From Opitutia bacterium (lineage in GTDB: Bacteria > Verrucomicrobiota > Verrucomicrobiia > Opitutales > T3Sed10-336): 46,840 nucleotides of DNA. Both the position numbers and the translations under genes were made by a program. Positions 3,525 to 44,425 of this stretch are shown piece after piece. How positions within the stretch are numbered: the first letter of the stretch is position 1; each line of letters starts with the position of its first letter. The stretch is from positions 1 to 46,840 of the forward strand of contig PWMU01000166.1 in the NCBI GenBank assembly GCA_003558065.1, written 5' to 3'. The notes below the pieces were generated by a model, which saw only the letters and a program-made list of their open reading frames with translations, was not told the origin of the DNA and made no database searches.

Positions 3525-3614
3525 CAGGGGTCGCGGGTTTCGGGTGCCGCTTTGTTCGGGTTTTGTCCTTCAGGGTGATTTTTACGGATGTGAACGGATT
3601 GAGGTAATTAGCGA

Positions 3615-5488: not shown

Positions 5489-5493
5489 TTAAT

Positions 5494-6765: not shown

Positions 6766-7283
6766 GGGCGCTGTTTCTGGCCAGGTCTTTCCGGGAGAAG
6801 GTGATGCTGTTGGCGTTCCTGCTCACCATGGTTCTCTTGTGGGGATTCAGCCTTATCGAACGCTCGGGAGATACCTCGCGCCAGGTTCAATCGACCGCCG
6901 CCCTGCTGCAGGAGCAACAGGTGGTGCTCAATGACGCGGAGGCGATCGAGGCGAGGATGCGGGCGGGAATTGAGAATCTCGACCCGGACCGGATTTTGAG
7001 CGGGAGTCTGTTGATGAGTGAACTCGATTCCATGGCGGGGCAATACGGGGTGGATCGTTCGATCGACTCCCCGCGCAGCCAGGAAGGGGAGGGTTTCTTC
7101 TTCCACACGGTCAATATAAATATCCAGAATGCCGATCTGGGGGCGCTGGTGGCTTTTGCCGAGGGTATCCATGAACGTTCCCCTTACATGGGACTGGAAG
7201 AGGTCCGCCTGACTGCGGACCGCAACCGGCCGGACCGGCTCGATGCGCGGTTCCGCATATCCTCGGTGGAGTTGGCCCAGTAA
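6762..7283 (+). CDS. GspM/PilO-like inner-membrane protein
   Basis: A 173-residue protein with a short cytoplasmic N-terminus, one transmembrane helix at about residues 11-28 (VMLLAFLLTMVLLWGFSL), a coiled coil to about 80 and a small alpha/beta periplasmic domain ending in FRISSVELAQ. This layout is typical of GspM and PilO, which pair with GspL/PilN through the periplasmic domain. It overlaps the GspL-like gene by 4 nt. Assignment rests on topology, size and order rather than on a diagnostic motif. Confidence 0.72.
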   Translation: MRALFLARSFREKVMLLAFLLTMVLLWGFSLIERSGDTSRQVQSTAALLQEQQVVLNDAEAIEARMRAGIENLDPDRILSGSLLMSELDSMAGQYGVDRSIDSPRSQEGEGFFFHTVNINIQNADLGALVAFAEGIHERSPYMGLEEVRLTADRNRPDRLDARFRISSVELAQ

Positions 7284-7371
7284 TGCTTTCGCCGTCACCT
7301 CCGCCGACGGAGGGCCCGCCCGAAAATGAATTGATCACGCAAACCGGTTTCTGATTTTATCCGCAAGGTAC

Positions 7372-9513: not shown

Positions 9514-9515
9514 CT

Positions 9516-10073
9516 ATGATCAAGACCTTCCATCGAAATTCACTGCTTGCCGGAGCGCTGATCGTGTCGTTCGTCTTTGCCGCGGAAACGGAGCTCCGGT
9601 CGGATACCCGGACCCTGGTCGAGAACTCGCCCTTCGTGCCCGAGGGCTTTGTGCCGCCCGAGCAGCGTCAACGGCCGGAGCCGGAGGAAGAGCCTCCTCC
9701 TCCTCCGGAGGATGACCCGTTGGACCGGCTCGAGTTAAGGGGAATCACGGTTTTGGGCGATCAGTCCTACTTCAGCTTTTACCATCCCGACGACCAGCAG
9801 AGCTTCTGGCTCGGCGTTGACGAGACCGAGGACGGCTACACGCTGCTCGACTACGACCCGTCGGCCGATGCCGTACTGGTTTTGCGGGGCGAGCGGGAGC
9901 GGCAGGTCACCTTGAAGGAGTCGCGGGTGCAGGAACTGTCCAGGGAGGAACAACGCCGTCAAACCGAGCAACGCACCCGGGAAACCTCCAGGGAAACGGC
10001 CGCCGAATCGGAAGAGCGATTGCGGCAGGCCGCCGAAGAACTCCGGCGCCGGCGGGCCCTCCGCTCGAATTGA
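9516..10073 (+). CDS. Periplasmic GspC/PilP-like linker protein
   Basis: A 185-residue protein starting 2 bp after gspD. It has an N-terminal signal anchor (LLAGALIVSFVFAAETE), a Pro/Glu-rich linker at about 50-72 (EEEPPPPPEDD), a compact beta domain at about 75-130 beginning LDRLELRGITVLGDQSYFSF with a short repeat of G-strand-like segments, and a highly charged Arg/Glu/Gln coiled tail. The arrangement of signal, proline-rich linker and small beta domain matches the GspC HR domain or PilP, which contact the secretin N0 domain. The charged C-terminal tail is not typical. The second secretin operon has an analogous small protein at 34287-34883. Family membership is inferred from layout. Confidence 0.6.
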   Translation: MIKTFHRNSLLAGALIVSFVFAAETELRSDTRTLVENSPFVPEGFVPPEQRQRPEPEEEPPPPPEDDPLDRLELRGITVLGDQSYFSFYHPDDQQSFWLGVDETEDGYTLLDYDPSADAVLVLRGERERQVTLKESRVQELSREEQRRQTEQRTRETSRETAAESEERLRQAAEELRRRRALRSN

Positions 10074-10086
10074 GAGACTGGCACGC

Positions 10087-11754
10087 ATGATTTCAGGCGA
10101 AACCAACGGTTGTTTGGATCAACTTACCGACGATCAGCGGGAGCACTTGCAGTCGCTGCCCCGCCAGAAACGGCTCGCCGCCCTCGCCGGGTTTCTCGGC
10201 GACTCCGAGGAGAACGTATTGGAGCGGCTTTCGGCCGAGTTGCGGATGCCCATTGAGCTTCCGGACGAGTCGGGACTGGGGGCGATCGGAGAACTGCCCG
10301 CCCGCCTGCTGCACGAATACCAGTGCGTGCCGGTGAAGGCGGGAGAGAATGGGAAGCTTTGCCTGACCACCTTGTGGCCGCCCGAACCGGGAATGGAGGA
10401 TTGGGTCTATGCGGTCTCCGGGCGCGAAGTGGATTGGAGCCTGGCGCCTCCCGAAAAGATCAGCGATTTCCTGACCCAGCATCTCGGCGTCGGGTTCGAC
10501 ACACTCGATGACGCCACGCTTGACGAGATCGACGAGAAGCAGGGTGAAGTCGAGGAGGAAGAAGACGAAACGGCGACCATCGTGCGGTTTGTCAACGATG
10601 TCGTCAGCCAGGCCGTTCAGGACGCCGCCACGGATATCCATGTCGAGCCGCAGGAGGAGGAACTTCGGATCCGGTATCGTATTGACGGCATGCTGGTTTC
10701 GGTGCCGGTCCCCGAGAATCTCCGTCGCTTTCAGGACGCCATCATCGCGCGCGTCAAGATTATGGCGCGGCTGAATATTTCCGAGCGCCGCCTGCCCCAG
10801 GACGGGCGCATCAATTTTCGCGTGGGAGAGAACCTTCTCGATATTCGGGTTTCCACCGTGCCCACCATGTACGGCGAGAGCGTCAGTCTCCGGTTGCTGA
10901 ACAAGAAGTCACGGCCGTTTACCATGGAGGAGATCGGACTCCTGCCGCAGGACCAGAAGATCATAGACCGGGTACTCTTTATGCCCCATGGCATCGTCCT
11001 CGTCACCGGTCCGACGGGTTCGGGGAAGTCGACTTCGCTTAACGCCTTTATCCGGCAGATCAATTCTCCGGACAAACGGATTATCACGATCGAGGACCCG
11101 ATCGAGTACGAGGTGCCCGGGGTCAATCAGATGCAGGTCAGGCCGGAGATCGGGCTGGAATTTGCCGACGCCTTGAGACACATCCTGCGGCAGGATCCGG
11201 ATGTCATTATGGTCGGCGAGATCCGCGACCGCGACACGGCCGATATCGCCATTCGCGCTTCGCTCACCGGTCACCTGGTGTTCAGTACCCTGCACACCAA
11301 TGACGCTCCGGGAGCCCTCACCCGTTTGATCGACATGGGGATTGAACCCTTCCTGGTCGCTTCGGCGGTCGAAATGGTCATCGCCCAACGGCTGATCAGA
11401 CGCCTGTGTAAATCCTGCCTGCGTATGGAGAAAGTGGATCCTACGGAGCTCAAGGGACAGCTTTCACTGCTGGAGGTCGACCTGAAGGAAGCCGACGGTG
11501 TCGAGGAGCTCGCCGCCTCACCCGGATGCCAGCGCTGTCGCGGCTCCGGGTTTAAGGGCCGGCTCGGGATTTTCGAGGTGTTGCGGGTGAACGAATCTCT
11601 TCACGAATTGATCGTGACGGGGCAATCGGCACGTGTCATCCGCCGCCGCGCCATGGAGAACGGAATGCGGGATCTGGCCTTTTGCGGCTGGGAACAGGTC
11701 AAAATGCGGAACACGACCATGGAGGAAGTTCTGCGGGTGACTTCCTCGGAGTAA
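10087..11754 (+). CDS. gspE: Type II secretion ATPase GspE
   Basis: A 555-residue secretion ATPase. The N-terminal domain (about 1-130) is of the GspE N1/N2 type. An acidic linker at about 145-165 leads to the ATPase core: IVRFVNDVVSQAVQDAATDI and HVEPQEEELRIRYRIDG, Walker A GPTGSGKST at 308-316, Asp box ITIEDPIEYE, Walker B VIMVGEIRDRDTA and His box GHLVFSTLHTNDAP. A CxxC pair near residue 441 and a second near 490 form the zinc-binding tetracysteine motif of GspE. It powers pseudopilus assembly from the cytoplasm. Its stop codon overlaps the gspF start (TAATG), so the two are translationally coupled. Confidence 0.96.
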   Translation: MISGETNGCLDQLTDDQREHLQSLPRQKRLAALAGFLGDSEENVLERLSAELRMPIELPDESGLGAIGELPARLLHEYQCVPVKAGENGKLCLTTLWPPEPGMEDWVYAVSGREVDWSLAPPEKISDFLTQHLGVGFDTLDDATLDEIDEKQGEVEEEEDETATIVRFVNDVVSQAVQDAATDIHVEPQEEELRIRYRIDGMLVSVPVPENLRRFQDAIIARVKIMARLNISERRLPQDGRINFRVGENLLDIRVSTVPTMYGESVSLRLLNKKSRPFTMEEIGLLPQDQKIIDRVLFMPHGIVLVTGPTGSGKSTSLNAFIRQINSPDKRIITIEDPIEYEVPGVNQMQVRPEIGLEFADALRHILRQDPDVIMVGEIRDRDTADIAIRASLTGHLVFSTLHTNDAPGALTRLIDMGIEPFLVASAVEMVIAQRLIRRLCKSCLRMEKVDPTELKGQLSLLEVDLKEADGVEELAASPGCQRCRGSGFKGRLGIFEVLRVNESLHELIVTGQSARVIRRRAMENGMRDLAFCGWEQVKMRNTTMEEVLRVTSSE

Positions 11755-13061
11755 TGGCTCGCTTTCAATACACAGCGCGCGATTCGGCCGGGGCTCTGGT
11801 AAAGGGGGCTCTGGATGCCGCGAGCCGGAAGGAAGCGATTCGCCTGATCGGCTTGCGGGATCTCTACCCGGTTTCCCTTACCGACGGGGGCGGGGGAGCC
11901 GCGACCAAGAAAAAACCGCCTGCCAAAAATAAGGATTCCACCTCCCGGGAGAAACGCTCGGAAGCCCGCACGACCTCCACTGCGGAGAAGAAGCGGAGCC
12001 CCCCCGCCGCGGGGGCGGGCGATTTCTCGAAGCTGGGCCCCCGGCATGCCCTCTCCTTTTTGCGCTCGCTCTCCGAATTGATATCCAGCGGCATGCCGGT
12101 CGGTGACGCCGTCCGGCTGCTGAGTGTGCGGTTGAAGGACCCCAAACTCCGCCAACTGGCCGGGTTTCTCTGGGAACAGGTCAGCTCGGGACAATCGATC
12201 TCCGAGGCCATGGCGGAGCTGCCCGATACCTTCGAGGAATCCTCCGTTCACCTCATTCGCGCGGGGGAGGCCACCGGAAATCTCGAGGAGATTCTGCGCA
12301 GGCTGGTGGGGTATTACGAAAACCGGAACGCGCTGCGAAGCAAGGTGACGAACGCCCTGGCCTACCCGGTGTTCGTCATTCTGGTTGCGATCGGGGTGAT
12401 CGTGTTCTTCATTTACTTCCTCTTTCCGCGGATGGAGACCCTGTTCGATTCGCTGGGCGGGAACATCCCGGCCGCCACCCAGCTCTTGATCGACAGTTCC
12501 GAGTTTTTGATGACCTACGGGATTTTTATCCTGGCGGGCGGGATCGTGCTCGGATTGAGCTTTTGGCAATGGCGACGGACGCCCAAAGGTCGCCTGAAAA
12601 CCGATCAATGGCTTCTTAAAATCCCGGCGCTCCGCGATTTTATCATAGTCAGCGATGTGCTCCAGATCAGCCAGACTTTGTCGGCTTTGCTCGAAAACGG
12701 GGTCACTACCGTGGAGGCCTTGAAGATGACCGAGAACGTGATCCGCAACCAGGCGATCCGCGAGTCTTTTTCCGAGGCGCGGGGCATGGTGGTGGAAGGG
12801 ACGTCGATTTCCGGTGCGCTCCAGGCGACAGGTCATTTCCCGGACCTCGTGCTGGACATGCTGGATGTCGGCGAAAATACAGGAAATATTGTGCCGAGCC
12901 TGAAGGAAATCACCCGCCTTTACCAGGATCGCCTGACGCGCCATCTGCAACTGTTTACGGCATTCCTGTCGATCGGGGTCCTTATTACCGCCGTCGTCTT
13001 TGTCGCGTTCATCGCATTTGCCATCTTTACCGCTGTTTTTCAGCTGAGCGGAAGTTTCTGA
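11754..13061 (+). CDS. gspF: Type II secretion inner-membrane platform protein GspF
   Basis: A 435-residue platform protein. The frame stays open upstream into gspE, but the ATG at 11754 overlapping the gspE stop gives MARFQYTARDSAGALVKGAL, the standard GspF/PilC beginning. A Lys/Ser/Pro-rich low-complexity linker at about 42-90 joins this N-terminal arm to the two T2SSF repeats. The repeats show SFLRSLSELISSGMPVGDAV and LFAGEATGNLEEIL-type helices, transmembrane segments near 205-225 (VFVILVAIGVIVFFIYFLF), 255-275 and the C-terminal LSIGVLITAVVFVAFIAFAI. GspF couples GspE to the pseudopilus. The long linker is longer than in typical members. Confidence 0.95.
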   Translation: MARFQYTARDSAGALVKGALDAASRKEAIRLIGLRDLYPVSLTDGGGGAATKKKPPAKNKDSTSREKRSEARTTSTAEKKRSPPAAGAGDFSKLGPRHALSFLRSLSELISSGMPVGDAVRLLSVRLKDPKLRQLAGFLWEQVSSGQSISEAMAELPDTFEESSVHLIRAGEATGNLEEILRRLVGYYENRNALRSKVTNALAYPVFVILVAIGVIVFFIYFLFPRMETLFDSLGGNIPAATQLLIDSSEFLMTYGIFILAGGIVLGLSFWQWRRTPKGRLKTDQWLLKIPALRDFIIVSDVLQISQTLSALLENGVTTVEALKMTENVIRNQAIRESFSEARGMVVEGTSISGALQATGHFPDLVLDMLDVGENTGNIVPSLKEITRLYQDRLTRHLQLFTAFLSIGVLITAVVFVAFIAFAIFTAVFQLSGSF

Positions 13062-29772: not shown

Positions 29773-31692
29773 ATGCTACGAATGAACCGGCCGTTTAGAG
29801 GAGTCATACTGATACTTGTATTCAAGTGCTTCTTTCTGGTTAGTTGTCAGCATACTCCGGATCGGGACAGGGAAGCCGGAAGGCCGCACGAACGAGCCGT
29901 GGACGAAAGTGTGAGCCAGCGCTACGACGATGAGATTAAGGAGATTCTGGCGCTCGCCCGTCGAAATGAATGGGACGAGGCCATGACGCAGGCTTCCGGA
30001 CTGTATGCGTTGGATCCGGATGACGCGGAGGTTGAACGGATTTACACCTGGGTGGAGAAGGAACGGCGCCGCCGCCAGCAGAAAGCTTTGGAAGGAGAGC
30101 TGCACGATATCGAGGCGCAGGATTCCCGTTTTTCCCCGACGTTGCGGAGTGTTCTGTTCGACAGGCGTTCCCGCGGCCTGAGTCTCCCGACGGATCTGCG
30201 AAACACGCTCGACGAGCTCGACCGGCAACCCCTTGTTCCGGACTCGTTTAATCGTGTGATTGAACGTCAGGGGCCCCTGTATGATTTTGACCGGGCGCCG
30301 AGGAGGATGGACCAGATTCTCGAGCGCGAGGTAAGTATTCAGTTGGACGATGCCTCCCTGGAGGAGATCATTTTCACGCTCGGACGAAGCGAAAACATCA
30401 ATTTCGTCGCCGACCGGAATCTGCCGGCTTTTGAGCAGACGATCAGTGTTCAAATGGAGGACGTGATGCTATCGGAGTTCCTGGATTACGTTTCCCGGAA
30501 TTTCGATCTTCATTTTCAGGTGGGGTCGAATCTTGTGTGGATCGTCGACGGCAACACGAATTCGGAACGGTTGCAGGAAACCCGGTTTTACCGGTTGCGG
30601 CGCGGTTTCATCATGCCCGCGGAATTCGGAGCCCAGGAAATTGAACGGCGCACCGAACGCCGGGACGACCGCGAGATCATCACCGAAACCCAGGACATCG
30701 AGAAATTCGTCCGCGACGGCGCACCGACCGAGCCGTCCATTGAGCGCGCCATCAAGCGCTTCTTTAAAGGCTCGGATTACATGATCGACTTCGAGAGGAA
30801 TCTGATCGTGGCCTCGGGAACCCCCACCCAGTTGAGAACCCTGGAGACGATCATCGAGGAATTCGACCAGCCGATCCAGCAGGTGCTTATCGAAGCCCGT
30901 TTCCTGACCGTTACCGAAGCGGCGTTTCTCCAGTTGGGGACCATTTGGGAGACCGCCGGGGATCCGAGGGCGGACCGAAGGGCTCCGGAGGATTTTACCG
31001 GTTTCGGGACCGATGTGGGCCGCGGGTTGGCCAGAACCTTTACCGATGTGCTGTCGGTCAGGAATCTCAACGCCACGCTGACCGCTCTGGAGCAGAGCGG
31101 GGAAAGCCAGACATTGAGTTCCCCGCGCTTGACCGTGGTGAATAACCGGCCCGCCACTATTGCCGACGGCAAGCGTCAGTTTTACTATGAGGAATACGAG
31201 GTGTCGCAACAGGTGTTGGAGCGGCGATCGACCTCCACCCTGGTGCCGAGGGGCACGCCCACGGAGCTCCGGTCGGGAGTCTCACTCGACGTGTTGGCCA
31301 GCATCGGCGGCGACGGAGAGAGCATCATGCTGGCGTTGCATCCGAAGGTTAAACAGGATGTCGAGTTGGTGACCTTCGCTACAGTGAGCGATTTCGATGA
31401 AGACGGAAACGTCATCAAGGACTTTGAGATTCGACTTCCGGAGTCCCGTGACCAGGAGTTGGCGACCCGGGTGGTGGTCAATTCCGGCGAGACGGTGGTG
31501 ATGGGGGGAGTCATGGAAATGGAACAGACCACCTTTACCGAAGCGGTCCCGATTCTCGGGAATCTGCCGATTATCGGAGCGGCCTTCAGAAGACAGACCG
31601 AATTCGAACAACCGCGTTACCTGCTGATCTTTGTCACCGCCACGCTGCTTTCCGAGAGCGGCGAGTTTATCCGGCAGCGTCGGTTTGAGTAG
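29773..31692 (+). CDS. Type IV pilus-like secretin lipoprotein (PilQ/GspD family)
   Basis: A 639-residue secretin. The N-terminal signal ends in the lipobox L-V-S-C with Cys25, so it is probably a lipoprotein. A helical TPR-like segment (about 50-110) follows, then STN/secretin N-domains (about 175-260; [20 protein letters not shown]) and a second N-module ([20 protein letters not shown]). The C-terminal secretin domain (about 370-630) has [56 protein letters not shown] and [17 protein letters not shown]. It heads the PilMN-PilO-PilP-PilB operon and is distinct from the gspD at 7372. A start at ATG 29782 is also possible. Confidence 0.9.
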
Positions 31693-31715
31693 TTTCTGGG
31701 CGGTTCCTGCAGCGG

Positions 31716-33479
31716 ATGATCAGTTTAGATAATATTGAGGCAATCGGCGTTCGATCCGGCCTGTTTCAGCCGAAACGCTGCGTCATCGTCGATCCCGGCG
31801 GCACGTCGATCAAAGTGCTGCTCGCCGAGAGAAGCGGGCAGCGCGTGAGCATTCTGCATGCCCTCACCCTGAACCTGGAGCAGGAGGGGCTGCTCAACGC
31901 GGATGAAATACGACGCCATGTGGGGAAGGTCCTCGACGACCTGGGTGATGGATCCGTGTCCCTGGTGATCCCCCAGTCCATCACGATTTCCCAGCTCATG
32001 GATCTCGGGAAAAAGTGGCCGTACAATGTCAAGCGGGCAATCAGGGAGGAGACGCGGAACCTGAGCGGACTGACCGAGAAGTCCATCCTTTACGATTTTG
32101 TGCCGATGCGGCCCTTCTCGCGTTTTCAGGCGCCGTTCTGGGTCAGTATCGCCCGGGAGAACGAAGTAATGGAGCAACTTGAGCTGCTTCAGGATACCGA
32201 CCGGAAGGTCGCCGGGGTCATGACTCCGGCGAACTCGCTGATCAATGCCTTTGGTTACCTCTGCCCGGACGAGAAACACGGTCTTCTGGTCGATATCGGC
32301 GAAACGAGCACCACGGTTGCGCTCGTGGAGGACGGACAGGGAATTTTTGCGACGAATATCGCCCTCGGGAGCGAACATATCACCGAGGCCATTGCCGAAG
32401 ACGAGGGCTGCGGTTACGAGCGGGCGGGCCTACTCAAACAGGAAACCGACCTTTTCAGCGGAGAACGGCGTTACTCAGGCATGCTTCAGGTGGTGTCGCG
32501 CTGGCGCCGGGAGATCGACGATGTCGTTCTGGAATGGAGCCGCGAGCAGGGGGTGGAGCTCGAACGCTATCGTCATTTGCCGTGTTGGCTCTCCGGCGGC
32601 GGATCCCGTCAACCCGGAATCCGCGGGTACCTGAAACAGGAGTGGAGAAGCGAGATTCGCGACTGGCCCGGGCTTTCTTCAAAGCTGGGCGCAGTCGATG
32701 TGCCGAATTTCGTGATCACTTACGGAGCGGTCCTGAGCGCCTTCGGAAAAGGCGTGTATTCGGTCAACCTGTTGCCGCACTCGTTGCGGCGAGCACGCGT
32801 GTTCGAGCGCCAGGTGCGCAGGCTCTACGGTGTCGCCGGCGTCGTTATGGTGGTCCTTCTCATCCTTATGGGAAGAGGGGCGTTCGGGATTTCTGAGGAC
32901 ATTGCCGGAAAACGTGAAAAACTGGAACAACGCGAGAATGTTCAATTGCTTGCCGGGAATATCGAAGTCATGCGGGAGGAGAGGGTGATAGCTTATCGGG
33001 ATGTCCTGCCCCTGTTCTTTTATATGAAAAGGACGAGAGATTTTCTTGAAACGCTTGCTTTTCTGCGGGAGGTCAGCGACGATGATCGGTTCTGGTTTGT
33101 TCTGCTGGCGGACCAGGACACCTATTTCGGCCGTGATTCCGGTCCCGGCACGTCCCGTACCCAGGAGGGGAGAGTTTCAATGGAGGATATCGCCGGGGAG
33201 CAGACTGGCTTTGTCGTTGAATTGTGCATACTCAATGCGAACGACGGCGAGGCACAGGCCATACTCGGTGAGATGGTTGTGAACATGCGCAATGCGCCAT
33301 TTTTTTGGAGCGTGGACAAACTTCCTTCCGGTCAACGTCACGATCACGTTCCTCAAGCTGCAACCACCGACGGAACCGTTTATTCTCTCACCCTGGAGCT
33401 TGAACCGTTCCGGCACACCCTGGCGGAAACGCCTTCACTTGAATGGAAGCGTACGCCGCGCTTTATCTCCCGTCCGTGA
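31716..33479 (+). CDS. PilM-PilN fusion protein (pilus assembly)
   Basis: A 587-residue protein that fuses two usually separate pilus alignment proteins. Residues 1 to about 350 are the actin/FtsA-like PilM domain: the nucleotide-binding CVIVDPGGTSIKVLLAERSG near the N-terminus and GLLVDIGETSTTVALVEDGQ near 190-210. A transmembrane helix at about 371-388 (GVAGVVMVVLLILMGRG) is followed by a coiled coil and a PilN-like periplasmic domain. In typical type IV pili PilM is cytoplasmic and binds the PilN N-terminal tail; here they form one chain, like GspL. It starts 24 bp after the secretin stop and is followed immediately by the PilO-like gene. Confidence 0.85.
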   Translation: MISLDNIEAIGVRSGLFQPKRCVIVDPGGTSIKVLLAERSGQRVSILHALTLNLEQEGLLNADEIRRHVGKVLDDLGDGSVSLVIPQSITISQLMDLGKKWPYNVKRAIREETRNLSGLTEKSILYDFVPMRPFSRFQAPFWVSIARENEVMEQLELLQDTDRKVAGVMTPANSLINAFGYLCPDEKHGLLVDIGETSTTVALVEDGQGIFATNIALGSEHITEAIAEDEGCGYERAGLLKQETDLFSGERRYSGMLQVVSRWRREIDDVVLEWSREQGVELERYRHLPCWLSGGGSRQPGIRGYLKQEWRSEIRDWPGLSSKLGAVDVPNFVITYGAVLSAFGKGVYSVNLLPHSLRRARVFERQVRRLYGVAGVVMVVLLILMGRGAFGISEDIAGKREKLEQRENVQLLAGNIEVMREERVIAYRDVLPLFFYMKRTRDFLETLAFLREVSDDDRFWFVLLADQDTYFGRDSGPGTSRTQEGRVSMEDIAGEQTGFVVELCILNANDGEAQAILGEMVVNMRNAPFFWSVDKLPSGQRHDHVPQAATTDGTVYSLTLELEPFRHTLAETPSLEWKRTPRFISRP

Positions 33480-33484
33480 CGCTG

Positions 33485-34282
33485 ATGAATTTTATATTCA
33501 AGCGACCAATGTACGAGAAGGTTGTCCTGGCCCTGGGGGTTTTGGTGCTGCTCGTGTACCTGTTGGTTTATTTGCCCTTGTTGCGCGAGAGGCGCGAGCT
33601 GGTGCAGCAACTTGAATCGGCGGTTGAAGAGCTGAATGAGATGGGCTACGGAACGACCGAGGAAGCCGTTATGGAGAACCTCCGGCGCGTGGAGGACGAG
33701 CTCCGTATCCTGCGGGAGATCACGCTGGAGGGCCACCGGACTCTGGACAGCGATCCGATGATCGAGAACCGGATCGATGCGCCGTTTCAGTATTTCGAGT
33801 TCGATCAGGAAAGAAACAGTGTCATTTCCAGGTTGCGACGTACCGCCTCCGGCGAGGGGGTCGAAATCGATGATGCGGTTATCGAAGCGCTGCCGGAATA
33901 TGTCGGGCAGGCAAGGGAGCACCTTTTGTGGGCGCAGTTGGCGCTGGCTAACCAGGTCTTGCTGGGAGCGGTCGAGAACGGCGTCGACCGGGTTGAGAGC
34001 CTTCGTTTCGGACGAATTCAGCGAGTGGTCAGCGACGACCGGGAGGTCTTTGAGGAAGTAAGCCTTGAAATCGGTCTGAGGGGCGGCATGGATTCACTGA
34101 ACGCTTTCCTCCTGTACTTGATTCTGGATGCGGAACAGATTGAAACGGCGGGCCTGCCCGAGGCCTACCCGGGAAAACGCGGCCTGTTTATCGACCGTTT
34201 TCTCCTCAGGAAGGAGGCCGTCGATAATCCCGACGGTGTCGTGACGGAGCTAGTGATTAAATCGTTTTTGAGAGTGGACTGA
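33485..34282 (+). CDS. PilO-like periplasmic alignment protein
   Basis: About 265 residues from ATG 33485 (an upstream in-frame ATG at 33443 overlaps pilMN and is less likely). N-terminal transmembrane helix at about 9-33 (VVLALGVLVLLVYLLVYLPL), a coiled coil (about 35-85; LVQQLESAVEELNEMGY) and an alpha/beta periplasmic domain. Position after PilM-N and before the PilP-like gene matches PilO, which dimerises with PilN. By place in the locus it is also the counterpart of the Akkermansia outer-surface protein Amuc_1100; that relation is inferred from gene order, not from sequence comparison. Confidence 0.75.
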   Translation: MNFIFKRPMYEKVVLALGVLVLLVYLLVYLPLLRERRELVQQLESAVEELNEMGYGTTEEAVMENLRRVEDELRILREITLEGHRTLDSDPMIENRIDAPFQYFEFDQERNSVISRLRRTASGEGVEIDDAVIEALPEYVGQAREHLLWAQLALANQVLLGAVENGVDRVESLRFGRIQRVVSDDREVFEEVSLEIGLRGGMDSLNAFLLYLILDAEQIETAGLPEAYPGKRGLFIDRFLLRKEAVDNPDGVVTELVIKSFLRVD

Positions 34283-34286
34283 ACCT

Positions 34287-34883
34287 TTGAAAGACCAGCT
34301 AAAAAGTCTTGTCCTGCCGATTCTGCTTCTGGGCGGGGCGGTTTTTCTGGCCGGAATTGTGGTCTGGGACGGGATTCTGTCCCGCCCGGTTTTGAGTGTT
34401 GAGGAGAACGACAATGCCGGCGGCGTCGACGAACGTCTCACGCGCCAGGAACGGTCACTGCTGGATTATTTTGTGGCTCTATCGGAGGAGACCGGGCGGT
34501 TGACCCGGGGCCGTAACCCCTTTTATACCGAATTCGTCGAGCCTGAAGAGGAAGAGGAAGAGGAAGAGATCGAAGAGGAACCGGAGCAGGAGGAAGAGGC
34601 GGAAGAAGAGGAAGAGGAAGAACCCGAGCCGCCGCCGCCTCCCCGCAGGATTGAGATTCGCTACACCGGATTTCTGAGGAGCAGCCAGGGAGGCTTGCAG
34701 GCGTACGTGGTGAGGGATGAAACCACTCTTATAGGAGGAGAAGGAATGACCGTGGTCGATGACTGGCGGATCGAAAGCTTTGATTCCGATCGACTGATTC
34801 TCGCCGATGAAACGGGCGAAACCTTCGAAGTGGAATTCAATCAACGCCGCGTCCTGGAGATCCCGGTCGAGTCGGAGGATTGA
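34287..34883 (+). CDS. PilP-like inner-membrane linker protein with acidic spacer
   Basis: A 198-residue protein starting with a TTG codon at 34287, 4 bp after the previous stop; there is no ATG before the membrane segment. A transmembrane helix at about 7-25 (LVLPILLLGGAVFLAGIVVW) is followed by a low-complexity spacer at about 85-115 that is almost all Glu, Pro and Arg. A small beta domain at about 118-190 starts RRIEIRYTGFLRSSQGGLQA. PilP/GspC proteins use a flexible spacer and a beta domain to reach the secretin N0 domain. The long uninterrupted Glu run is striking. Confidence 0.7.
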   Translation: MKDQLKSLVLPILLLGGAVFLAGIVVWDGILSRPVLSVEENDNAGGVDERLTRQERSLLDYFVALSEETGRLTRGRNPFYTEFVEPEEEEEEEEIEEEPEQEEEAEEEEEEEPEPPPPPRRIEIRYTGFLRSSQGGLQAYVVRDETTLIGGEGMTVVDDWRIESFDSDRLILADETGETFEVEFNQRRVLEIPVESED

Positions 34884-34890
34884 TCAGCTT

Positions 34891-36609
34891 ATGGCAAAGA
34901 AATCCGATATAGGCACCATTCTGTTGGATAAGGGTGTGTTGAAGCGCGACCAGCTCGATATGGCGCGACGGCGTGCCGGACGGCAGAAAATCTCGTTGGC
35001 CAGGGCCATTACGGATCTTAATCTGGCTTCCGAAGAGGAGACTTATCGGGCAGTGGCGGAAGTGCATGGCCTTGAGTTTGTTCAGCCTGAAAAGCTGACT
35101 GTTGATAAGTCGGTTCTGGATCTTGTACCGATCAAACTGGTTCTGCATTATAAGTTTGTGCCGATCCGTTTCGAGGGGGGTGTGCTGACGCTGGCTTTTT
35201 GCGAGCCTCCGGCGCTCAGCGAAATGGGAAATCTTCGGCTTCTGATCGGATTTCGTGTCCGTCCGGCCCTCGCCGCTCCGCGGAGCATCCACGCCTTCAT
35301 CAAACGCAATTACGGACTCGGCGCGGAAACGATTCAGCACTTGCGGAAGGAGGAGGAGTTCAGCGATCTCAGCCAGGAGATCACCTTCGATGTCGAAACG
35401 TCGGAGGAGCCCGGCGAGCTCGATTCATCCATTTCCCGTTTCGTCAACCAGATCCTGGTCGAAGCCCTGCGCCTGGAGGCGACCGATATTCATATCGAGC
35501 CGTATGTTGCCAGGATCCGTTTGCGCTACCGCATCGACGGCGTTTTGCAGGATGTGCCCGTGCCCCCCGGTTTGCGCCAGTTGTATCCGGCCATTATTTC
35601 GCGGCTGAAGGTGATGGCGGGGTTGAATATCACCGAAAAGCGGGTGCCCCACGACGGCCGTATTTCGATGAAGACCGGAACCGAGGAATACGATTTGCGT
35701 GTGTCGATTATTCCAACGACTTTCGGAGAAGGGGTGTGTCTGCGGATCCTCGGCAGGGAGAGCATGTTCCTGGATCTCGAACAGCTGGGGATGGAAAAGG
35801 AGCAACAGGAGGTCGTCGAGGAATTGACCCAGCTTCCGCAGGGAATGGTGCTCCTGACGGGGCCGACCGGGAGCGGGAAAACCACCACGCTGTATGCCCT
35901 TCTCGCCCATGCCAACGACGAGGGACGGAAGATTGTGACGATCGAAAACCCGGTCGAGTACAAACTCGAAGGGGTCTCCCAGATCCAGATCCGCCCCGAG
36001 GTCGGGCTGGATTTCTCGAACTGCCTGCGCTCCGTTTTGCGGCACGATCCCGACGTGATCCTGATCGGCGAGATACGGGACCAGGAGACCGCCGAGATTG
36101 CGATCCGCTCGGCCCAGACCGGGCATTTGGTTTTTTCGACTCTTCACACCAACGACAGTGTGAGCGCCGTGACCCGACTCCTCGAGATGAAAGTGGAGCC
36201 GTTTCTCATCGGTTCCTCGCTCGTCTGCAGCATTGCTCAGCGTCTGGCACGGCGAGTGTGCCGCCACTGCATGGTCGAGGACACCGCCATTCCGGATCCG
36301 GTTCGCGAAGAGATGGCGGCTTCCCTTAACCTGAAGGCGGAGGAGGTCCGGGCCTGGAAAGGAAGGGGGTGCGTCGAGTGCAACGACAAGGGGGATCGCG
36401 GCCGGGTGGCGCTGTACGAGTTCTTTATCCTGGACGAGGAAATCATGGATGCGCTTTCGCCGGGTGTGAAGACGGGGGAACTGCGCAATTTGGCGAAGAA
36501 ACAGGGGTGGCGTTCGCTGCGCGAACAAGGTTGGTTCAAGGTCCAGAACGGCATCATTTCCGTCGAGGAGAATCAGCGACTTACACGGAGCCTGAAACTC
36601 AGGAAGTGA
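34891..36609 (+). CDS. Type IV pilus/type II-family assembly ATPase (PilB/GspE)
   Basis: A 572-residue ATPase starting at ATG 34891 (MAKKSDIGTILLDKG). N-terminal MshEN-type domain (about 1-150), then the core: SISRFVNQILVEALRLEATD, Walker A GPTGSGKTT at 324-332, Asp box TIENPVEYKLEG, Walker B ILIGEIRDQETAE and His box GHLVFSTLHTNDS. C-terminal CRHC and CVEC pairs form the zinc motif. It is similar in plan to gspE at 10087, so the window has two complete assembly ATPases. It may drive the PilQ-MN-O-P machine; no PilC/GspF platform or PilT retraction ATPase is encoded next to it. Confidence 0.95.
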   Translation: MAKKSDIGTILLDKGVLKRDQLDMARRRAGRQKISLARAITDLNLASEEETYRAVAEVHGLEFVQPEKLTVDKSVLDLVPIKLVLHYKFVPIRFEGGVLTLAFCEPPALSEMGNLRLLIGFRVRPALAAPRSIHAFIKRNYGLGAETIQHLRKEEEFSDLSQEITFDVETSEEPGELDSSISRFVNQILVEALRLEATDIHIEPYVARIRLRYRIDGVLQDVPVPPGLRQLYPAIISRLKVMAGLNITEKRVPHDGRISMKTGTEEYDLRVSIIPTTFGEGVCLRILGRESMFLDLEQLGMEKEQQEVVEELTQLPQGMVLLTGPTGSGKTTTLYALLAHANDEGRKIVTIENPVEYKLEGVSQIQIRPEVGLDFSNCLRSVLRHDPDVILIGEIRDQETAEIAIRSAQTGHLVFSTLHTNDSVSAVTRLLEMKVEPFLIGSSLVCSIAQRLARRVCRHCMVEDTAIPDPVREEMAASLNLKAEEVRAWKGRGCVECNDKGDRGRVALYEFFILDEEIMDALSPGVKTGELRNLAKKQGWRSLREQGWFKVQNGIISVEENQRLTRSLKLRK

Positions 36610-39221: not shown

Positions 39222-39532
39222 ATCGTTTCAAACCGGGATGCGGTCGCTGCGACGCTTCAATCGGGAGATGGTCCGCCGGCCTGCTAACAATGAGTCTCGG
39301 AAACCGTTCGGAAGCTAATCGTTTCCTCCCGGCCCCGGAAGGAGCGTTTTATCCCGCGATCCGACGGGAACGAAGACACCGCCCGGGTTGGTGCTGGTTG
39401 GCGACGACGGGTAACTGAAAACAGCCCGGAGTAAATCCGTTTTACATTTAATTTACCGTCAGTCGGTTGCGAATTGATTCTCCGATCTGGTATCCTCTTT
39501 GCTGGGAAGGGATGAGGCCCCGGCCATCAGCA
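39222..39532. other. 311-bp intergenic region upstream of pilin cassette 1
   Basis: No ORF or RNA gene was seen. The last 90 bp contain a promoter that is conserved in front of cassette 2 (see 39449-39496). Confidence 0.6.
39449..39496 (+). promoter_or_regulatory. Conserved promoter of minor-pilin cassette 1
   Basis: TAATTTACC (39449-39457), 9 bp, TTGCGA (39467-39472), an 18-bp spacer ending TCTGG, then TATCCT (39491-39496). The same three blocks with identical spacing precede cassette 2, which makes a sigma-70-like promoter with an upstream element likely. Confidence 0.65.
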
Positions 39533-39997
39533 ATGAGAGTAAACGTTTCGGAGAATTCGGCAAGGCGGCGTTCCCGGTCGGACGCGGGAGCTACGTTGAT
39601 CGAGGTCATTATCGCTATCCTCGTGCTCGGGGCGGTGGTGGCCACCACGATCATGGCAATGCGAACCGGCTTTTCGATGATCCAGCTCGCCCGCGACAAC
39701 ACCATGGCGTCACAGATCCTCCAGAGCGAAATGGAAAACCTTCGGCTCATGAGATGGCAGCATCTCTCCCAGCTGGAGGCGGAGGAGGAATTTCAGGTGG
39801 GAGACGACTTTGACCCAAGCCTCGCGGAACGTTATCGCGCGACTCGCCGGGTTATTGAGATCGAGGGCCGCGATGAGATCCTGGAGGTCGAGCTCGTGAT
39901 CGAATGGACGGCCCTCAGCGGCGCCGAGCACCGCCGCGTTTACCGGACGACATTTACGAGGTATGGACTCAATGACTACTACTATCGCGCCCTTTAA
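39533..39997 (+). CDS. Minor pilin A, cassette copy 1
   Basis: A 154-residue prepilin. Its 19-residue basic leader ends in Gly, followed by ATLIEVIIAILVLGAVVATT with Glu at mature position 5. The long conserved block SMIQLARDNTMASQILQSEM and an acidic segment (QLEAEEEFQVGDD) lead to a C-terminal beta domain ending LNDYYYRAL. The start at ATGAGA matches the paralogue at 42106, which has a leader of exactly the same length. It belongs to the PilV/GspI-like minor pilin class. Its last 26 nt also encode the start of gene B. Probably incorporated at the tip or base of a pilus made by one of the two nearby machines. Confidence 0.85.
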   Translation: MRVNVSENSARRRSRSDAGATLIEVIIAILVLGAVVATTIMAMRTGFSMIQLARDNTMASQILQSEMENLRLMRWQHLSQLEAEEEFQVGDDFDPSLAERYRATRRVIEIEGRDEILEVELVIEWTALSGAEHRRVYRTTFTRYGLNDYYYRAL

Positions 39998-40574
39998 TCG
40001 CGTGCGGCGCTCCCGGAGCGCGTTTACGCTGACCGAGTTGATGCTGGTTATGACGCTCACTGTGATCCTGACAGGGGCGATTTTCGCGGCTTTCGGTTTC
40101 GTGATGCGGGGGAGCTTTGCCATCGCCAATTACTCGGATATGACTTCGGAGGGACGGCGGGGGCTGGAAGTCTTTGCGCGTGACGTGAGACAGGCGGCCG
40201 ACATTATTGAGTTTTCAGAGGAATCGCTGACCTTGTACCTGAATCCGCTCGAGGACGATCCCTATCTCGTAACCTACCGTTACAACGAGTCCGACCGGAC
40301 TTTCGAGCGGGAACAGGACGGTGAGGTTCAGGTGCTGATGCGTGATATACGGCGGGCGTCCGGTTCGCAATTGGAGGCTCCTTTTCGATTCCGCCGTTTC
40401 AAGGTTGTGCGGACCCCGGACGGAGACGATGAGGCCAACCTGGCCATGAATCACCTGGAGACCAAGCAGCTTCAGTTGCAGTTGTCGATGGTCAAACGGG
40501 TGCTGGCACGCGACACTTCGGAAAAAGTGGTGTCGGCCCGCTACGTGATGCGGAACAAAAAGGTAACGGAATGA
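39972..40574 (+). CDS. Minor pilin B (PilW-like), cassette copy 1
   Basis: A 200-residue prepilin. A 17-residue leader ends in Ala, then FTLTELMLVMTLTVILTGAI with Glu at position 5. The block FAIANYSDMTSEGRRGLEVF leads into a mostly beta domain (about 55-170) and a conserved C-terminal MVKRVLARDTSEKVVSARYV. The start ATGACTACTACTA is conserved in the paralogue, so 39972 is preferred over ATG 39963. Gene A and B overlap by 26 nt, and gene B overlaps or abuts the PilX-like gene (ATGA at 40571). PilW/GspJ-like minor pilins help prime assembly. Confidence 0.85.
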   Translation: MTTTIAPFNRVRRSRSAFTLTELMLVMTLTVILTGAIFAAFGFVMRGSFAIANYSDMTSEGRRGLEVFARDVRQAADIIEFSEESLTLYLNPLEDDPYLVTYRYNESDRTFEREQDGEVQVLMRDIRRASGSQLEAPFRFRRFKVVRTPDGDDEANLAMNHLETKQLQLQLSMVKRVLARDTSEKVVSARYVMRNKKVTE

Positions 40575-40588
40575 ATAAGGACCTGGTT

Positions 40589-41893
40589 ATGAAAAGCAAT
40601 CAACGGCGTTTGGACGACAATCGGGGTTCGATCCTGATTATTGCTGTGATCTTTGCGACGATCGCCGCGATCAGCATCGGCAGTTACATTCGGCTGGCCG
40701 GAACCGAAATGCGGATGGCCAACCAGCAGTTTTACGCCAATGCCAGCCTTAACCTGGCCGAAGCCGGGGTCGAGGAGGCGCTGTATGCCCTGAACCGCAG
40801 TGCCTGGAACGCGGAGGGCTGGCATCCTTCGGACAATGCCAACCGGTACCGGCGGACCTACGATAATATCGAGCTCGGCGACGGCGCCGTGGGGACGATC
40901 AACGTCGATGTTCGCGATGCGAGGTTTTCCAATCCGGTGATCTACGCCCAGGGAACCGTTCGTTCCGGTGGCGGCAATACCACGCTCAAACAGATCCAGG
41001 TGGATATGGGCAGGCGGAGTCTGTTCGCCAACGGTCTGACTTCCCGAAACAATGTCACCTTTTCCGGCGGCCGCGCCTATGTGGCCAGTTACCGGTCCTC
41101 GGACCCCGATATGACCACGCTCGACGGCGGTTCCGTGGCCAGCGTCTCGATCGAGGAGGATTCGGTCGATGTCGGCAATGGAACCATCTACGGATCGGTC
41201 TCCACCGGCGGGGAATGGCCCAATATCCGCAACGGGATGGTTTATGGCGCGGATACTCCCGAGGGGGTGGATGTGGATCCCGACCGGGTCTCCACTGATT
41301 TTGAATCCTCGTTTCCGGTCATCGAACATCGCGAAGAAGACGGTCACCAGACGCATGGGGGTGCGGCGGTGCTCGAAAGCGACGGATCGGATACGACCAA
41401 GTATTTTGCCGACTCGATCAACCTGGCCGATGACGACGAATTGATCATCAGGGGCGATGTCAGTTTGCGGGTCGACGGGGACGTCACTATCAGCGACAAT
41501 GCCAGGATCGTTCTCGAGGAGGGGGCCAAACTGACGATGTATGTTCTCGGTGATTTCCATATGGGGGGCAACGGGATGGCGAATCTCTACGGGGATCCCA
41601 ACCCGAAACCCGAGAATATGATCGTCTACGGGACGGCGCCCGAAAGCCAGGAGTTTTCCCTCGCCGGCAACGCGGCGTGGCACGGCGCGATTTACGCACC
41701 CAATGCGTCGGTCGGGTTGCTCGGTGGCGGAGATAGCGGCGTGTTTCGCGGGGCGATTGTCGCGGATCACATCCGCATGACCGGCGGCAGTGAATTTTAC
41801 TACGATGAGGATCTTGGAGGGGTGAATGACACAGGCGATTTCGGGGCGGTGAACTTGCGCGAGCTCTTCGGGGACGACCGGCGGAACCTTTGA
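40589..41893 (+). CDS. PilX-like pilin with C-terminal beta-helix domain, cassette copy 1
   Basis: A 434-residue protein from ATG 40589 (AAGGA 7 bp before; an ATG at 40571 coupled to gene B is also possible). N-terminus RGSILIIAVIFATIAAISIG then QQFYANASLNLAEAGVEEAL, the PilX_N pattern. A long repetitive region from about 170 follows, ending with GDVSLRVDGDVTISDNARIV and LAGNAAWHGAIYAPNASVGL and FRGAIVADHIRMTGGSEFYY, which resembles the DUF7305-type right-handed beta-helix found on such proteins. It would present a large ligand-binding or adhesive domain from the pilus. The substrate is unknown. Confidence 0.82.
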   Translation: MKSNQRRLDDNRGSILIIAVIFATIAAISIGSYIRLAGTEMRMANQQFYANASLNLAEAGVEEALYALNRSAWNAEGWHPSDNANRYRRTYDNIELGDGAVGTINVDVRDARFSNPVIYAQGTVRSGGGNTTLKQIQVDMGRRSLFANGLTSRNNVTFSGGRAYVASYRSSDPDMTTLDGGSVASVSIEEDSVDVGNGTIYGSVSTGGEWPNIRNGMVYGADTPEGVDVDPDRVSTDFESSFPVIEHREEDGHQTHGGAAVLESDGSDTTKYFADSINLADDDELIIRGDVSLRVDGDVTISDNARIVLEEGAKLTMYVLGDFHMGGNGMANLYGDPNPKPENMIVYGTAPESQEFSLAGNAAWHGAIYAPNASVGLLGGGDSGVFRGAIVADHIRMTGGSEFYYDEDLGGVNDTGDFGAVNLRELFGDDRRNL

Positions 41894-41996
41894 CCCGGGA
41901 GCGAACACCGAATGGGAAGAGACTGGATCCTCTCCTCTCTGAAACGGCACGTTTCACGTGTACCCGGGCGTCGCAGCGTGGCGCTCGTTTAACGGA

Positions 41997-42044
41997 TAAT
42001 TTACCTCCGGCAAGTTGCGATTTGTTGTTGCATTCTGGTAGAAT
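41997..42044 (+). promoter_or_regulatory. Conserved promoter of minor-pilin cassette 2
   Basis: TAATTTACC (41997-42005), 9 bp, TTGCGA (42015-42020), an 18-bp spacer ending TCTGG, then TAGAAT (42039-42044), matching the cassette 1 promoter in order and spacing. The -10 is closer to consensus here than in copy 1. Confidence 0.68.
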
Positions 42045-42105
42045 CTCATTTCGCGGGACGCATCGTGTCCCGACTTGCTTCCAACTCCGGCTTCCGGAGC
42101 TCTCA

Positions 42106-42567
42106 ATGAGAACTGTTTCATCAAATAATGCCGGCTTTCGGCGCCGGTGTTCGAAGAACGGAATGACGATGATCGAAATCGTCATTGCGGTGATGGTCCT
42201 CGGGCTTGTGGTGGCGTCGACCTTCATGGCGATGAGGGCGGGCTTTACGATGATTCAACTGGCCCGCGACAATACCATGGCCGGCCAGATTCTTCAGAGT
42301 GAAATGGAGAACCTGCGTCTGAAGAGCTGGGACCAGCTCAATGAGCTCGAAGAGGAGGAGGAATTCCAGGTGGATACTTTGTTGGACGAGAATATCGGCG
42401 ACCGCTTTATCAGGACCAGGAGAATCAGGGGTATTCGTGGCGGCAGAATGAAGGAGGTCGAAATCGAAGTCGAGTGGACCTCGCTAAGGGGGGCACGGCA
42501 TCGCCGGGTTTACCGAACTCTGTTCGGAAAGGAGGGTTTGAATGACTACTACTACCGGGCGTTCTAA
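42106..42567 (+). CDS. Minor pilin A, cassette copy 2
   Basis: A 153-residue paralogue of the gene at 39533. A 19-residue leader ending in Gly, then MTMIEIVIAVMVLGLVVAST with Glu at position 5. The block TMIQLARDNTMAGQILQSEM and the ending GLNDYYYRAF are almost the same as copy 1, while the middle (about 75-105) diverges. The ATG at 42106 is chosen because it aligns with copy 1; the frame runs open far upstream. It overlaps gene B by 26 nt exactly as in copy 1. Confidence 0.87.
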   Translation: MRTVSSNNAGFRRRCSKNGMTMIEIVIAVMVLGLVVASTFMAMRAGFTMIQLARDNTMAGQILQSEMENLRLKSWDQLNELEEEEEFQVDTLLDENIGDRFIRTRRIRGIRGGRMKEVEIEVEWTSLRGARHRRVYRTLFGKEGLNDYYYRAF

Positions 42568-43087
42568 AAGCCGTCATTGCGGCGCATTCACTCTGACGGA
42601 GTTGATGATTGTGATGACGCTCGCCGTTATCCTGTCGGGCGCCATGTTTGCCTCCTTTGCCTTTGCCATGCGGGGAAGCTTTGCGATCGCCAACTATGCC
42701 GATATGACTTCCGAGGGGCGGCGGGGGCTCGAGATTTTCGCGCGCGACGTTCGGACGGCGGACGATGTGATCGACTTTTCCGAAACCGCATTGACGCTCC
42801 ACCTGAAGCCCCCTGACGGCATCCCTTACGAGATTACCTATCGCTATGATGCCAATGATGAAACGTTCGAGCGTGTGTTGGGCGGGGAGTCGCAGATTCT
42901 GATGAGCGATGTGCGGCAGTTCTTCTTTCGGCGATTCAACCTTCAGGGGGAACCTACGAATAAGAATCTGGAGACGGTCCAGATTCAATTGGAATTGTCG
43001 ATGGTCAAACGCGTGCTCGTCCGCGAGACGTCCGAAAAAATCGTGTCCGCGCGGTTCGTCATGAGGAACAAGCAGGTCACGCAGTGA
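42542..43087 (+). CDS. Minor pilin B (PilW-like), cassette copy 2
   Basis: A 181-residue paralogue of the gene at 39972. Leader of 15 residues ending in Ala, then FTLTELMIVMTLAVILSGAM. The block FAIANYADMTSEGRRGLEIF and the C-terminal MVKRVLVRETSEKIVSARFV are nearly identical to copy 1, while it lacks about 17 residues in the loop around 115-140. Pseudopilin heads often vary in this region, so the copies may bind different partners. Confidence 0.87.
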   Translation: MTTTTGRSKSRHCGAFTLTELMIVMTLAVILSGAMFASFAFAMRGSFAIANYADMTSEGRRGLEIFARDVRTADDVIDFSETALTLHLKPPDGIPYEITYRYDANDETFERVLGGESQILMSDVRQFFFRRFNLQGEPTNKNLETVQIQLELSMVKRVLVRETSEKIVSARFVMRNKQVTQ

Positions 43088-43126
43088 GGATAGAGCACGG
43101 GTCGAATGAAACAGGAGACAGCAACC

Positions 43127-44425
43127 ATGAAAACGACAGATAAAGATCTGAGGGACAGTCGTGGCTCGATTTTGATCGTGGCCATCATTTTTGCAACGAT
43201 TTCCGCCATCAGCCTCGGAAGCTACATTCGAATGGCGGCGACCGAGATGCGGCTGGCAAATTCACAGTTCTACTCCAACGCCAGCCTCAACCTGGCCGAG
43301 GCGGGGATTGAGGAAGCGCTGTTCGCCATCAACCAGGATGCCTGGGGCGAGCAGAACTGGGGTCCCGGTCCGTCTTCGAGCGATCGTCAGAAACGCTTTG
43401 AGGACGTTGAGCTGGGTTCCGGGGCGAGGGGGAATTTTACGGTACGTGTTCTGGATCACGAGAGTCATACGCCTACCGTAATAACCGAGGCGAGGGTGTC
43501 CGCCGGCGGCAGCACCGCCACCAAACAGATCGAAGCGAAGTTGACCCGCCGTTCCTACTTCGGCAACGGGATCACTTCCCGCAGCGCCATTGTTATCCGG
43601 GGAAACCGCGTTTATATCGCCAGTTACCGCTCCTCGATCCCCGCTACGCTGAGCAATGACCTGGACAATGGCAGCATCGCGAGCGTGATGGTTATCGACG
43701 AATCCATCGATATCGGGAATGCCATTATCCGAGGCTGGGTTGCGACCGGCGGCGGGGACCCGATCTGGCGGCCGAATGCGACGGTGGGAAGTCACGATAC
43801 GCCGGAGGGGGTCGTCGACGAAGAGCACATTTCTAATGACTTTTCCTCTTCCTTTCCGGAAGTCGAGCCGCCGGATACCACCTTGGCCTTGCCCTACCTG
43901 GATGAGGACGAGATCGGCACGCTGGGGGAGTATGTCATTTATACCGCGGACAGTGTCAACCGGAGCGGTGCCGGAAGTGAGTTGAGGATCACCGGCCACG
44001 TTACCATGGTCGTGGATAACGATTTCAATATCGGGGGCAACGGTCAGGTGATCATCGAAGAGGGGGCGTCCCTGACCCTTTTTGTCGGGGGCGAACTGAG
44101 TGTCAAGGGCAACGGAATGGCGAACGAATCCGGGATTCCGGGGAATCTCCAGATCTACGGGTTTGGAGACGGGGGCTACGATTGGGACCTTGGCGGTACG
44201 GCCGACCTGTTTGCCGCGGTTTATGCGCCCATCATGAATATCAATATGCTTGGAACCAGTGAATTCAGGGGCGCGGTTGTCGGGGATGACGTTTTCCTGA
44301 ACGGCGATGTGGACTTCTGGTACGACGAAGACCTGCGGGAGCTCTTTACCGATAATCGGTACGCGATGACCCGCTGGCAGGAGCTCTACGGTGACAACCG
44401 CTACGATCTGGGCAGCGGAGGGTAG
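43127..44425 (+). CDS. PilX-like pilin with C-terminal beta-helix domain, cassette copy 2
   Basis: A 432-residue paralogue of the gene at 40589. Start ATG 43127, preceded by AGGAG (43113-43117) 9 bp upstream, in line with the copy 1 start; ATG 43106 is possible. N-terminus RGSILIVAIIFATISAISLG and SQFYSNASLNLAEAGIEEAL are well conserved. The repetitive C-terminal part (GHVTMVVDNDFNIGGNGQVI, GTADLFAAVYAPIMNINMLG) keeps the fold pattern but differs far more than the N-terminus. Divergence concentrated in the exposed domain fits specialisation of ligand binding. Confidence 0.83.
   Translation: MKTTDKDLRDSRGSILIVAIIFATISAISLGSYIRMAATEMRLANSQFYSNASLNLAEAGIEEALFAINQDAWGEQNWGPGPSSSDRQKRFEDVELGSGARGNFTVRVLDHESHTPTVITEARVSAGGSTATKQIEAKLTRRSYFGNGITSRSAIVIRGNRVYIASYRSSIPATLSNDLDNGSIASVMVIDESIDIGNAIIRGWVATGGGDPIWRPNATVGSHDTPEGVVDEEHISNDFSSSFPEVEPPDTTLALPYLDEDEIGTLGEYVIYTADSVNRSGAGSELRITGHVTMVVDNDFNIGGNGQVIIEEGASLTLFVGGELSVKGNGMANESGIPGNLQIYGFGDGGYDWDLGGTADLFAAVYAPIMNINMLGTSEFRGAVVGDDVFLNGDVDFWYDEDLRELFTDNRYAMTRWQELYGDNRYDLGSGG

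Follow-up and report, generated by a model that had tools for sequence, protein, structure and literature searches.

Two tandem A-B-X cassettes and their promoter

The DNA analyzed here, referred to as the window, is a stretch of 46,840 nucleotides from an Opitutia bacterium (assembly GCA_003558065.1, contig PWMU01000166.1, positions 1 to 46,840 of the forward strand) that carries two consecutive three-gene cassettes encoding minor pilins, which we designate A, B, and X. The genes of cassette 1 span 39533-41893 and those of cassette 2 span 42106-44425, in the same order A-B-X and all on the plus strand; a preliminary description of this DNA had proposed both the tandem repeat and the minor-pilin nature of its products, and both are borne out. 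A1 (39533..39997, 154 residues, cleavage after G19 and Glu at +5) and A2 (42106..42567, 153 residues) are GspI/PilV-like and share 60.1% identity (92/153), B1 (39972..40574, 200 residues) and B2 (42542..43087, 181 residues) are GspJ-like and share 65.2% (118/181), and the candidate tip pilins in the GspK/PilX position, X1 (40571..41893) and X2 (43106..44425), share 45.5% (194/426). The 19-residue leader of A, described earlier as conserved, keeps its length but is only 42% identical between the copies. A ends in NDYYY and B begins with MTTT in both cassettes, and the two genes overlap here by an identical 26 nucleotides if B1 begins at 39972, the start that matches B2, and not at 39963, the start given previously and retained here as an alternative. 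The earliest conserved ATG of X (40589 in X1 and 43127 in X2) sits within the listed reading frames and may be the true start.

Each cassette is preceded by a common promoter pattern, TAATTTACC-N9-TTGCGA-N18-TAnnnT. In the promoter of cassette 1 (39439..39496, plus strand), direct repeats TTTAC-N6-TTTAC and TAATTTACC (39449-39457) are followed by a −35 element TTGCGA (39467-39472), an 18-bp spacer, and the −10 element TATCCT (39491-39496); in that of cassette 2 (41987..42044, plus strand), direct repeats and TAATTTACC (41997-42005) are followed by TTGCGA (42015-42020), an 18-bp spacer, and TAGAAT (42039-42044). The equal spacing noted in the preliminary description is therefore confirmed for the promoter itself, and the stretch from the −10 element to the ATG is unequal (36 versus 61 bases). 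TAATTTACC occurs twice in the window versus 0.02 occurrences expected, none of 100 shuffles had two, and the exact 24-base pattern TAATTTACC-N9-TTGCGA is found in the whole genome at these two sites only; one further site with two mismatches looks unrelated. Three other species (G001, G002, and G006) keep the promoter at this locus, and seven promoters from four species have TTT-N-AM, TTTAC, GTTGCGA, and the TA of the −10 element in common, equally spaced as far as the −10 element. The motif was not found at those cassettes dispersed elsewhere in the genome that were checked.

The 11-bp direct repeat, TTTAM-N6-TTTAC, resembles the sites of OmpR/PhoB-type regulators, and the conserved promoter of this pair, which lies between rdgB and metG, is possibly under response-regulator control. 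A genome-wide regulon was considered and rejected: a shorter motif with one mismatch gave counts no greater than, or close to, a reversed-pattern control in seven of eight genomes (the genome of the window had 15 versus 7), and the extra sites on contigs C156 and C173 look unlike the cassette promoters. A sigma-70 scan also picks up the promoter of cassette 2, with a scan total at chance level, and a rough promoter/terminator scan yielded no more than in shuffles.

Pilin stems and a predicted solenoid head

A1 lies just under the cut-off of the Pfam N_methyl model (E-value 0.0012, 18.7 bits versus 21.2), which B1, A2, and B2 exceed. Both A proteins match the NCBIfam gspI model below its cut-off of 44.35 bits (A1, 2.8e-6 and 27.8 bits; A2, 2e-5 and 25.0 bits), and the PilV model is matched by A below its cut-off (9.9e-5); on these weak hidden Markov model (HMM) scores, A appears to resemble GspI/PilV, and we do not file it as a family member. 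B is predicted to have a GspJ fold: an AlphaFold2 (AF2) model of B1, of low confidence (predicted local distance difference test [pLDDT] score of 62), matches seven GspJ-type entries (GspJ/XcpW/EpsJ) with Z of 9.0 to 10.4, and the next unrelated entry stands at 4.7. A Glu at +5 is expected in I- and J-type pilins and is absent in K/X-type pilins (GspK/PilX); our alignments place it in A and B and not in X. The −1 residue of the B prepilin is Ala in both window copies (before FTLTE; 39972-40040 and 42542-42600); in the copies from G001 and in the dispersed cassettes it is Gly.

X is without a match to any GspK family model and instead matches DUF7305 (PF23981) above the curated cut-off of 27 bits in both copies (X1, 7.3e-26 and 91.6 bits; X2, 2.5e-22 and 80.1 bits). 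DUF7305 has no match in any of 14 control genomes, Thermus composti included, and no paper naming it was found in the literature searched. The AF2 model of X1 (pLDDT 76.5) consists of a helix (residues 8-76), a pilin sheet (92-148), a solenoid (~149-417), and a last strand (424-432), such that the solenoid is predicted to interrupt the pilin sheet ahead of its last strand. This solenoid matches the ice-binding protein 4nu2 with Z of 18.5 (2.6 Å over 198 residues), and the whole of X1 matches Thermus ComZ (6qvi) with Z of 14.2; since the root-mean-square deviation of the latter is 11.6 Å over 325 residues, the two domains are probably placed differently in X and ComZ. A partial match near background (Z of 8.6 over residues 259-416) links X to the tapirins of Caldicellulosiruptor (PDB 6n2b), which are likewise beta-helix surface proteins, and a weak N-terminal HMM match to them falls far under the family cut-off. 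The heads are strongly acidic, with isoelectric points (pI) of 4.17 in X1 (15 basic and 44 acidic residues) and 4.05 in X2 (12 basic and 42 acidic residues).

Age and divergence of the cassettes

The preliminary description counted two cassettes; the genome holds at least five, two at this locus, one on contig C14, one on contig C116, and one truncated at the end of C116. In a congener (G001), one contig reads pilB-ribD-rdgB-A1B1X1 followed by the start of another A at the contig end, and a second contig runs from its end through A2B2X2 to metG; a species of a different genus (G006) has copy 2 beside metG. X1 is 71 to 72% identical to the rdgB-side X of the congener and ~45% identical to X2, which is itself 75 to 76% identical to the metG-side X of the congener. 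A concatenated tree groups cassette 1 of the window with the rdgB-side cassette of G001 (support 100/99) and cassette 2 with its metG-side counterparts in G001 (97/98) and G006 (100/100), with the dispersed cassettes as a third group (100/99), and a clade of the two window cassettes is rejected by the approximately unbiased test (p-AU of 2e-51). The preliminary description had held that such closeness to the single cassettes of other genomes would argue against local duplication. Because both copies, and not a single cassette, are present at this locus in the congener, this closeness dates the duplication and does not disprove it; a simple local duplication in this genome is not supported. As orthologs of each copy are found in other species, the duplication is, on these sequence comparisons, older than the species split, with copy 2 common to two genera. 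The locus pair receives support of 78/83 as sister groups in one tree, the alternatives have p-AU of 0.17 and 0.19, and a tree of A and B only places group 1 with the dispersed group (81/93).

Cassette gain and loss seem to be continuing. The G002 locus has two different X genes, ~69% identical over their overlap, the metG-side one being of the group 1 type; two G001 contig ends (L050, 11689-12056; L051, 11054-11436) carry promoter/A starts that are 91.6% identical, which may reflect strain variation or a third cassette in the tandem; and G037, from another family of the order, has a separate tandem pair. An X gene in G002 (contig C45, L054/L087) has no detectable A or B before the contig end and is placed, with moderate support (93/92), as the sister of group 2. 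Two X homologs from a further genus in the family (G005:C195, 7809-9074; G007:C91, 7241-8515) each have one stop codon reported inside the match. The named cassette-bearing relatives are metagenome-assembled Opitutia/Opitutales and other Verrucomicrobiota, several of them from T3Sed- and CSSed-labelled isolates.

Region-wise comparison agrees with the earlier statement that divergence lies in the middle of A, a loop of B, and the head of X. The N-terminal helix of X is 76% identical between paralogs and 79 to 87% between close orthologs, whereas the pilin sheet, middle, and solenoid are 33 to 50% identical between paralogs versus 67 to 85% between close orthologs. Fixed differences between the two X groups, counted on three sequences per group, number 0 of 62 sites in the N-terminal helix and 36 of 364 elsewhere, so that of the proposed duplication followed by specialization, the concentration of divergence outside the helix stands; the pilin sheet has diverged as much as the solenoid. 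Synonymous differences (pS) in X are equally high in the helix (0.64) and the solenoid head (0.65), which argues that the helix is kept alike by constraint and rules against recent gene conversion. The ratio of nonsynonymous to synonymous divergence (dN/dS) is uninformative for the paralogs, ortholog values being low (~0.1-0.24) and dS near saturation. The pattern is what a common assembly stem with diverged heads would give and does not in itself point to different ligands, the example offered in the preliminary description; the heads of X1 and X2 are members of one family and of similar acidity (pI of about 4.1).

The pilus machine and the proposed role as alternative tips

A type IV pilus machine is encoded ~3 kb upstream of the cassettes on the same strand (29773..36609) and comprises a PilQ-like secretin (29773-31692), a PilM-like protein that also weakly matches the Amuc_1101 family (31716-33479), a GspM/PilO-like protein (33443-34282), an unknown protein (34287-34883), and a PilB-like ATPase with an MshEN domain (34807-36609); the matches to the PilQ, PilM, and PilB models are below curated cut-offs. 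Further genes, including ribD and rdgB, lie between the machine and the cassettes, and metG follows them, these neighbors being identified from sequence and conserved order in relatives. Separate from this machine, a type II secretion system (T2SS)-type cluster at 3021-13061 encodes GspI/J-like and GspK-like proteins, GspD, GspE, and GspF. Elsewhere in the genome, two PilA-like genes in tandem (GFTLVEIMIVVVIIGLLAAMAIPAFQRVRENS; 5127-5546 and 5919-6341) lie downstream of the C116 cassette, an arrangement resembling Thermus pilA2-pilA3-comZ-pilA4. For a single genome, this one is rich in pilin-like genes, with 70 matches to the N_methyl prepilin model, and it also has four PilT-family genes that score above cut-off. 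The PilY1 model (PF05567) gives no match in this genome, but neither does it in the control set.

We consider it probable that the cassettes are alternative pilus tips of ancient origin that serve one type IV pilus machine. A-B-X would be a minor-pilin trio of the GspI-GspJ-GspK type that starts fiber assembly at the pilus tip, with X as a cap whose pilin stem bears an outward-facing beta-solenoid head. A and B would attach beneath X, the major pilin would then polymerize under them, driven by the nearby PilB, and the fiber would pass through the PilQ-like secretin. The two copies would be ancient paralogs standing side by side, whose assembly helix stayed alike and whose promoter was conserved, its 11-bp direct repeats perhaps acted on by an OmpR/PhoB-type regulator, while their exposed parts diverged, each conserved in its own lineage, to give alternative tips for one machine. 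We favor this reading because the exposed parts have diverged yet each is conserved within its own lineage, and we count for it the type IV pilus-type machine 3 kb upstream, the C116 cassette with its two PilA-like genes, the fold match of B to GspJ/XcpW/EpsJ, that of X to ice-binding-type solenoids and ComZ, the Glu+5 pattern, the separate GspK-like gene of the T2SS-type cluster, the promoter conservation, and the precedents of ComZ/PilA2 (PMC6561018) and of Myxococcus (PMC7541494). The tandem organization, prepilin signals, orthology groups, promoter conservation, and divergence pattern are observed, and the folds of X1 and B1 are predicted; the position of X at the tip, the use of the upstream machine, different binding targets of the two heads, and the action of a regulator on the repeats are inferred.

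Several observations weigh against this proposal. No major pilin was identified at the cassette locus, and several other PilB/GspE-type ATPases occur in the genome, such that another machine may serve the cassettes. The GspI assignment of A rests solely on sub-cut-off HMM scores, confidence in the B model is low, and a sequence link between X and ComZ was not found, 3a1m (E of 0.12) being the sole entry that a profile search of PDB sequences returned. The fixed differences come from few sequences, and dN/dS gives no sign of positive selection.

This absence of a selection signal is shared ground with the view, which we regard as unlikely, that the copies are functionally redundant, that is, spare tip modules for dosage with drifting surface residues. 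The shared promoter and common fold family agree with redundancy, as does Myxococcus xanthus, in which three tip clusters serve one machine and cluster 1 or cluster 3 alone is enough for pili (PMC7541494); however, each copy here has its own conserved head across species, and the fixed differences between groups, few as the sequences are, fall outside the helix and never inside it.

A marginally less likely alternative is that X serves natural transformation as a DNA receptor, the cassettes being competence pilus tips. ComZ, a DNA-binding pilin of Thermus (PMC6561018), shares its overall architecture with X, and ComEC is present in the genome together with the PilT-family genes. However, the heads of X are very acidic, although ComZ too is without a positive patch, and a single DNA receptor is not an obvious explanation for five cassettes.

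It is improbable that the cassettes form a T2SS pseudopilus tip with heads that select cargo or push it. In favor are the likeness of A and B to GspI and GspJ and the presence of the T2SS-type cluster in the same window, but that cluster has its own GspK-like gene (4361-5488; NF037980, 2.5e-21; T2SSK_1st, 3.3e-9) and so does not need the cassettes as its tip; moreover, the nearer machine is PilQ/PilM/PilB-like and another cassette adjoins PilA-like genes. A recent local tandem duplication in this lineage, suggested by adjacency and the shared promoter, has next to no probability, being refuted by the tree test and by the presence of both orthologs at the same locus in the congener.

The alternative tips favored here have relatives among known systems. 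One is ComZ with PilA2, competence pilins of Thermus thermophilus (PDB 6qvi): in ComZ, as in the X1 model, a large beta-solenoid is set into the pilin sheet ahead of its last strand, the solenoid is likewise nearest to 4NU2, a tip position has been proposed, and a GspI-like partner is encoded nearby; X is acidic and, at 440 residues, shorter than ComZ, for which PDB chain numbering gives about 550. The GspI-GspJ-GspK (XcpVWX) tip complex has the same I-J-K gene order, prepilin signals, and a K-position protein without Glu+5, and its GspJ structures resemble B; X differs in its solenoid head and the lack of a GspK family match, and A and B remain under family cut-offs. The minor-pilin/PilY1 clusters of M. 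xanthus are also several to a genome, but they contain FimU and PilY1, whereas each cassette here consists of three genes, its head is part of X, and two of the cassettes stand in tandem with one promoter type. Minor-pilin paralogs are also known from Xylella, where their roles are mostly opposite (PMC9956873). Multicopy pilin-like gene cassettes, the Verru_Chthon cassettes (TIGR02598 and partners), are known from Verrucomicrobiota; membership was rejected, as only A1 matches protein B (E of 0.073, 13.3 bits versus a cut-off of 51.4) and the other cassette proteins have no match at E up to 1. No papers came from literature searches on Verru_Chthon cassettes, on tapirins together with type IV pili, or on prepilins of Verrucomicrobia.

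Tips encoded in multiple clusters are already known; what is new is a tip module of three genes, its solenoid head fused to a pilin, that is both tandem and dispersed, with conserved lineages. More tentatively, the five or more cassettes might form a repertoire of interchangeable tips, a conserved stem with different solenoid heads, in which a regulator on the direct repeats switches the rdgB-metG pair as a set and one machine changes specificity by swapping its tip module. The function of type IV pili is thought to depend largely on the tip, and repeated, lineage-conserved tip modules offer a ready-made series in which to test how binding depends on the head while the stems go on assembling. 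For DUF7305, a domain of unknown function, the model would give its members a predicted fold and a candidate role.

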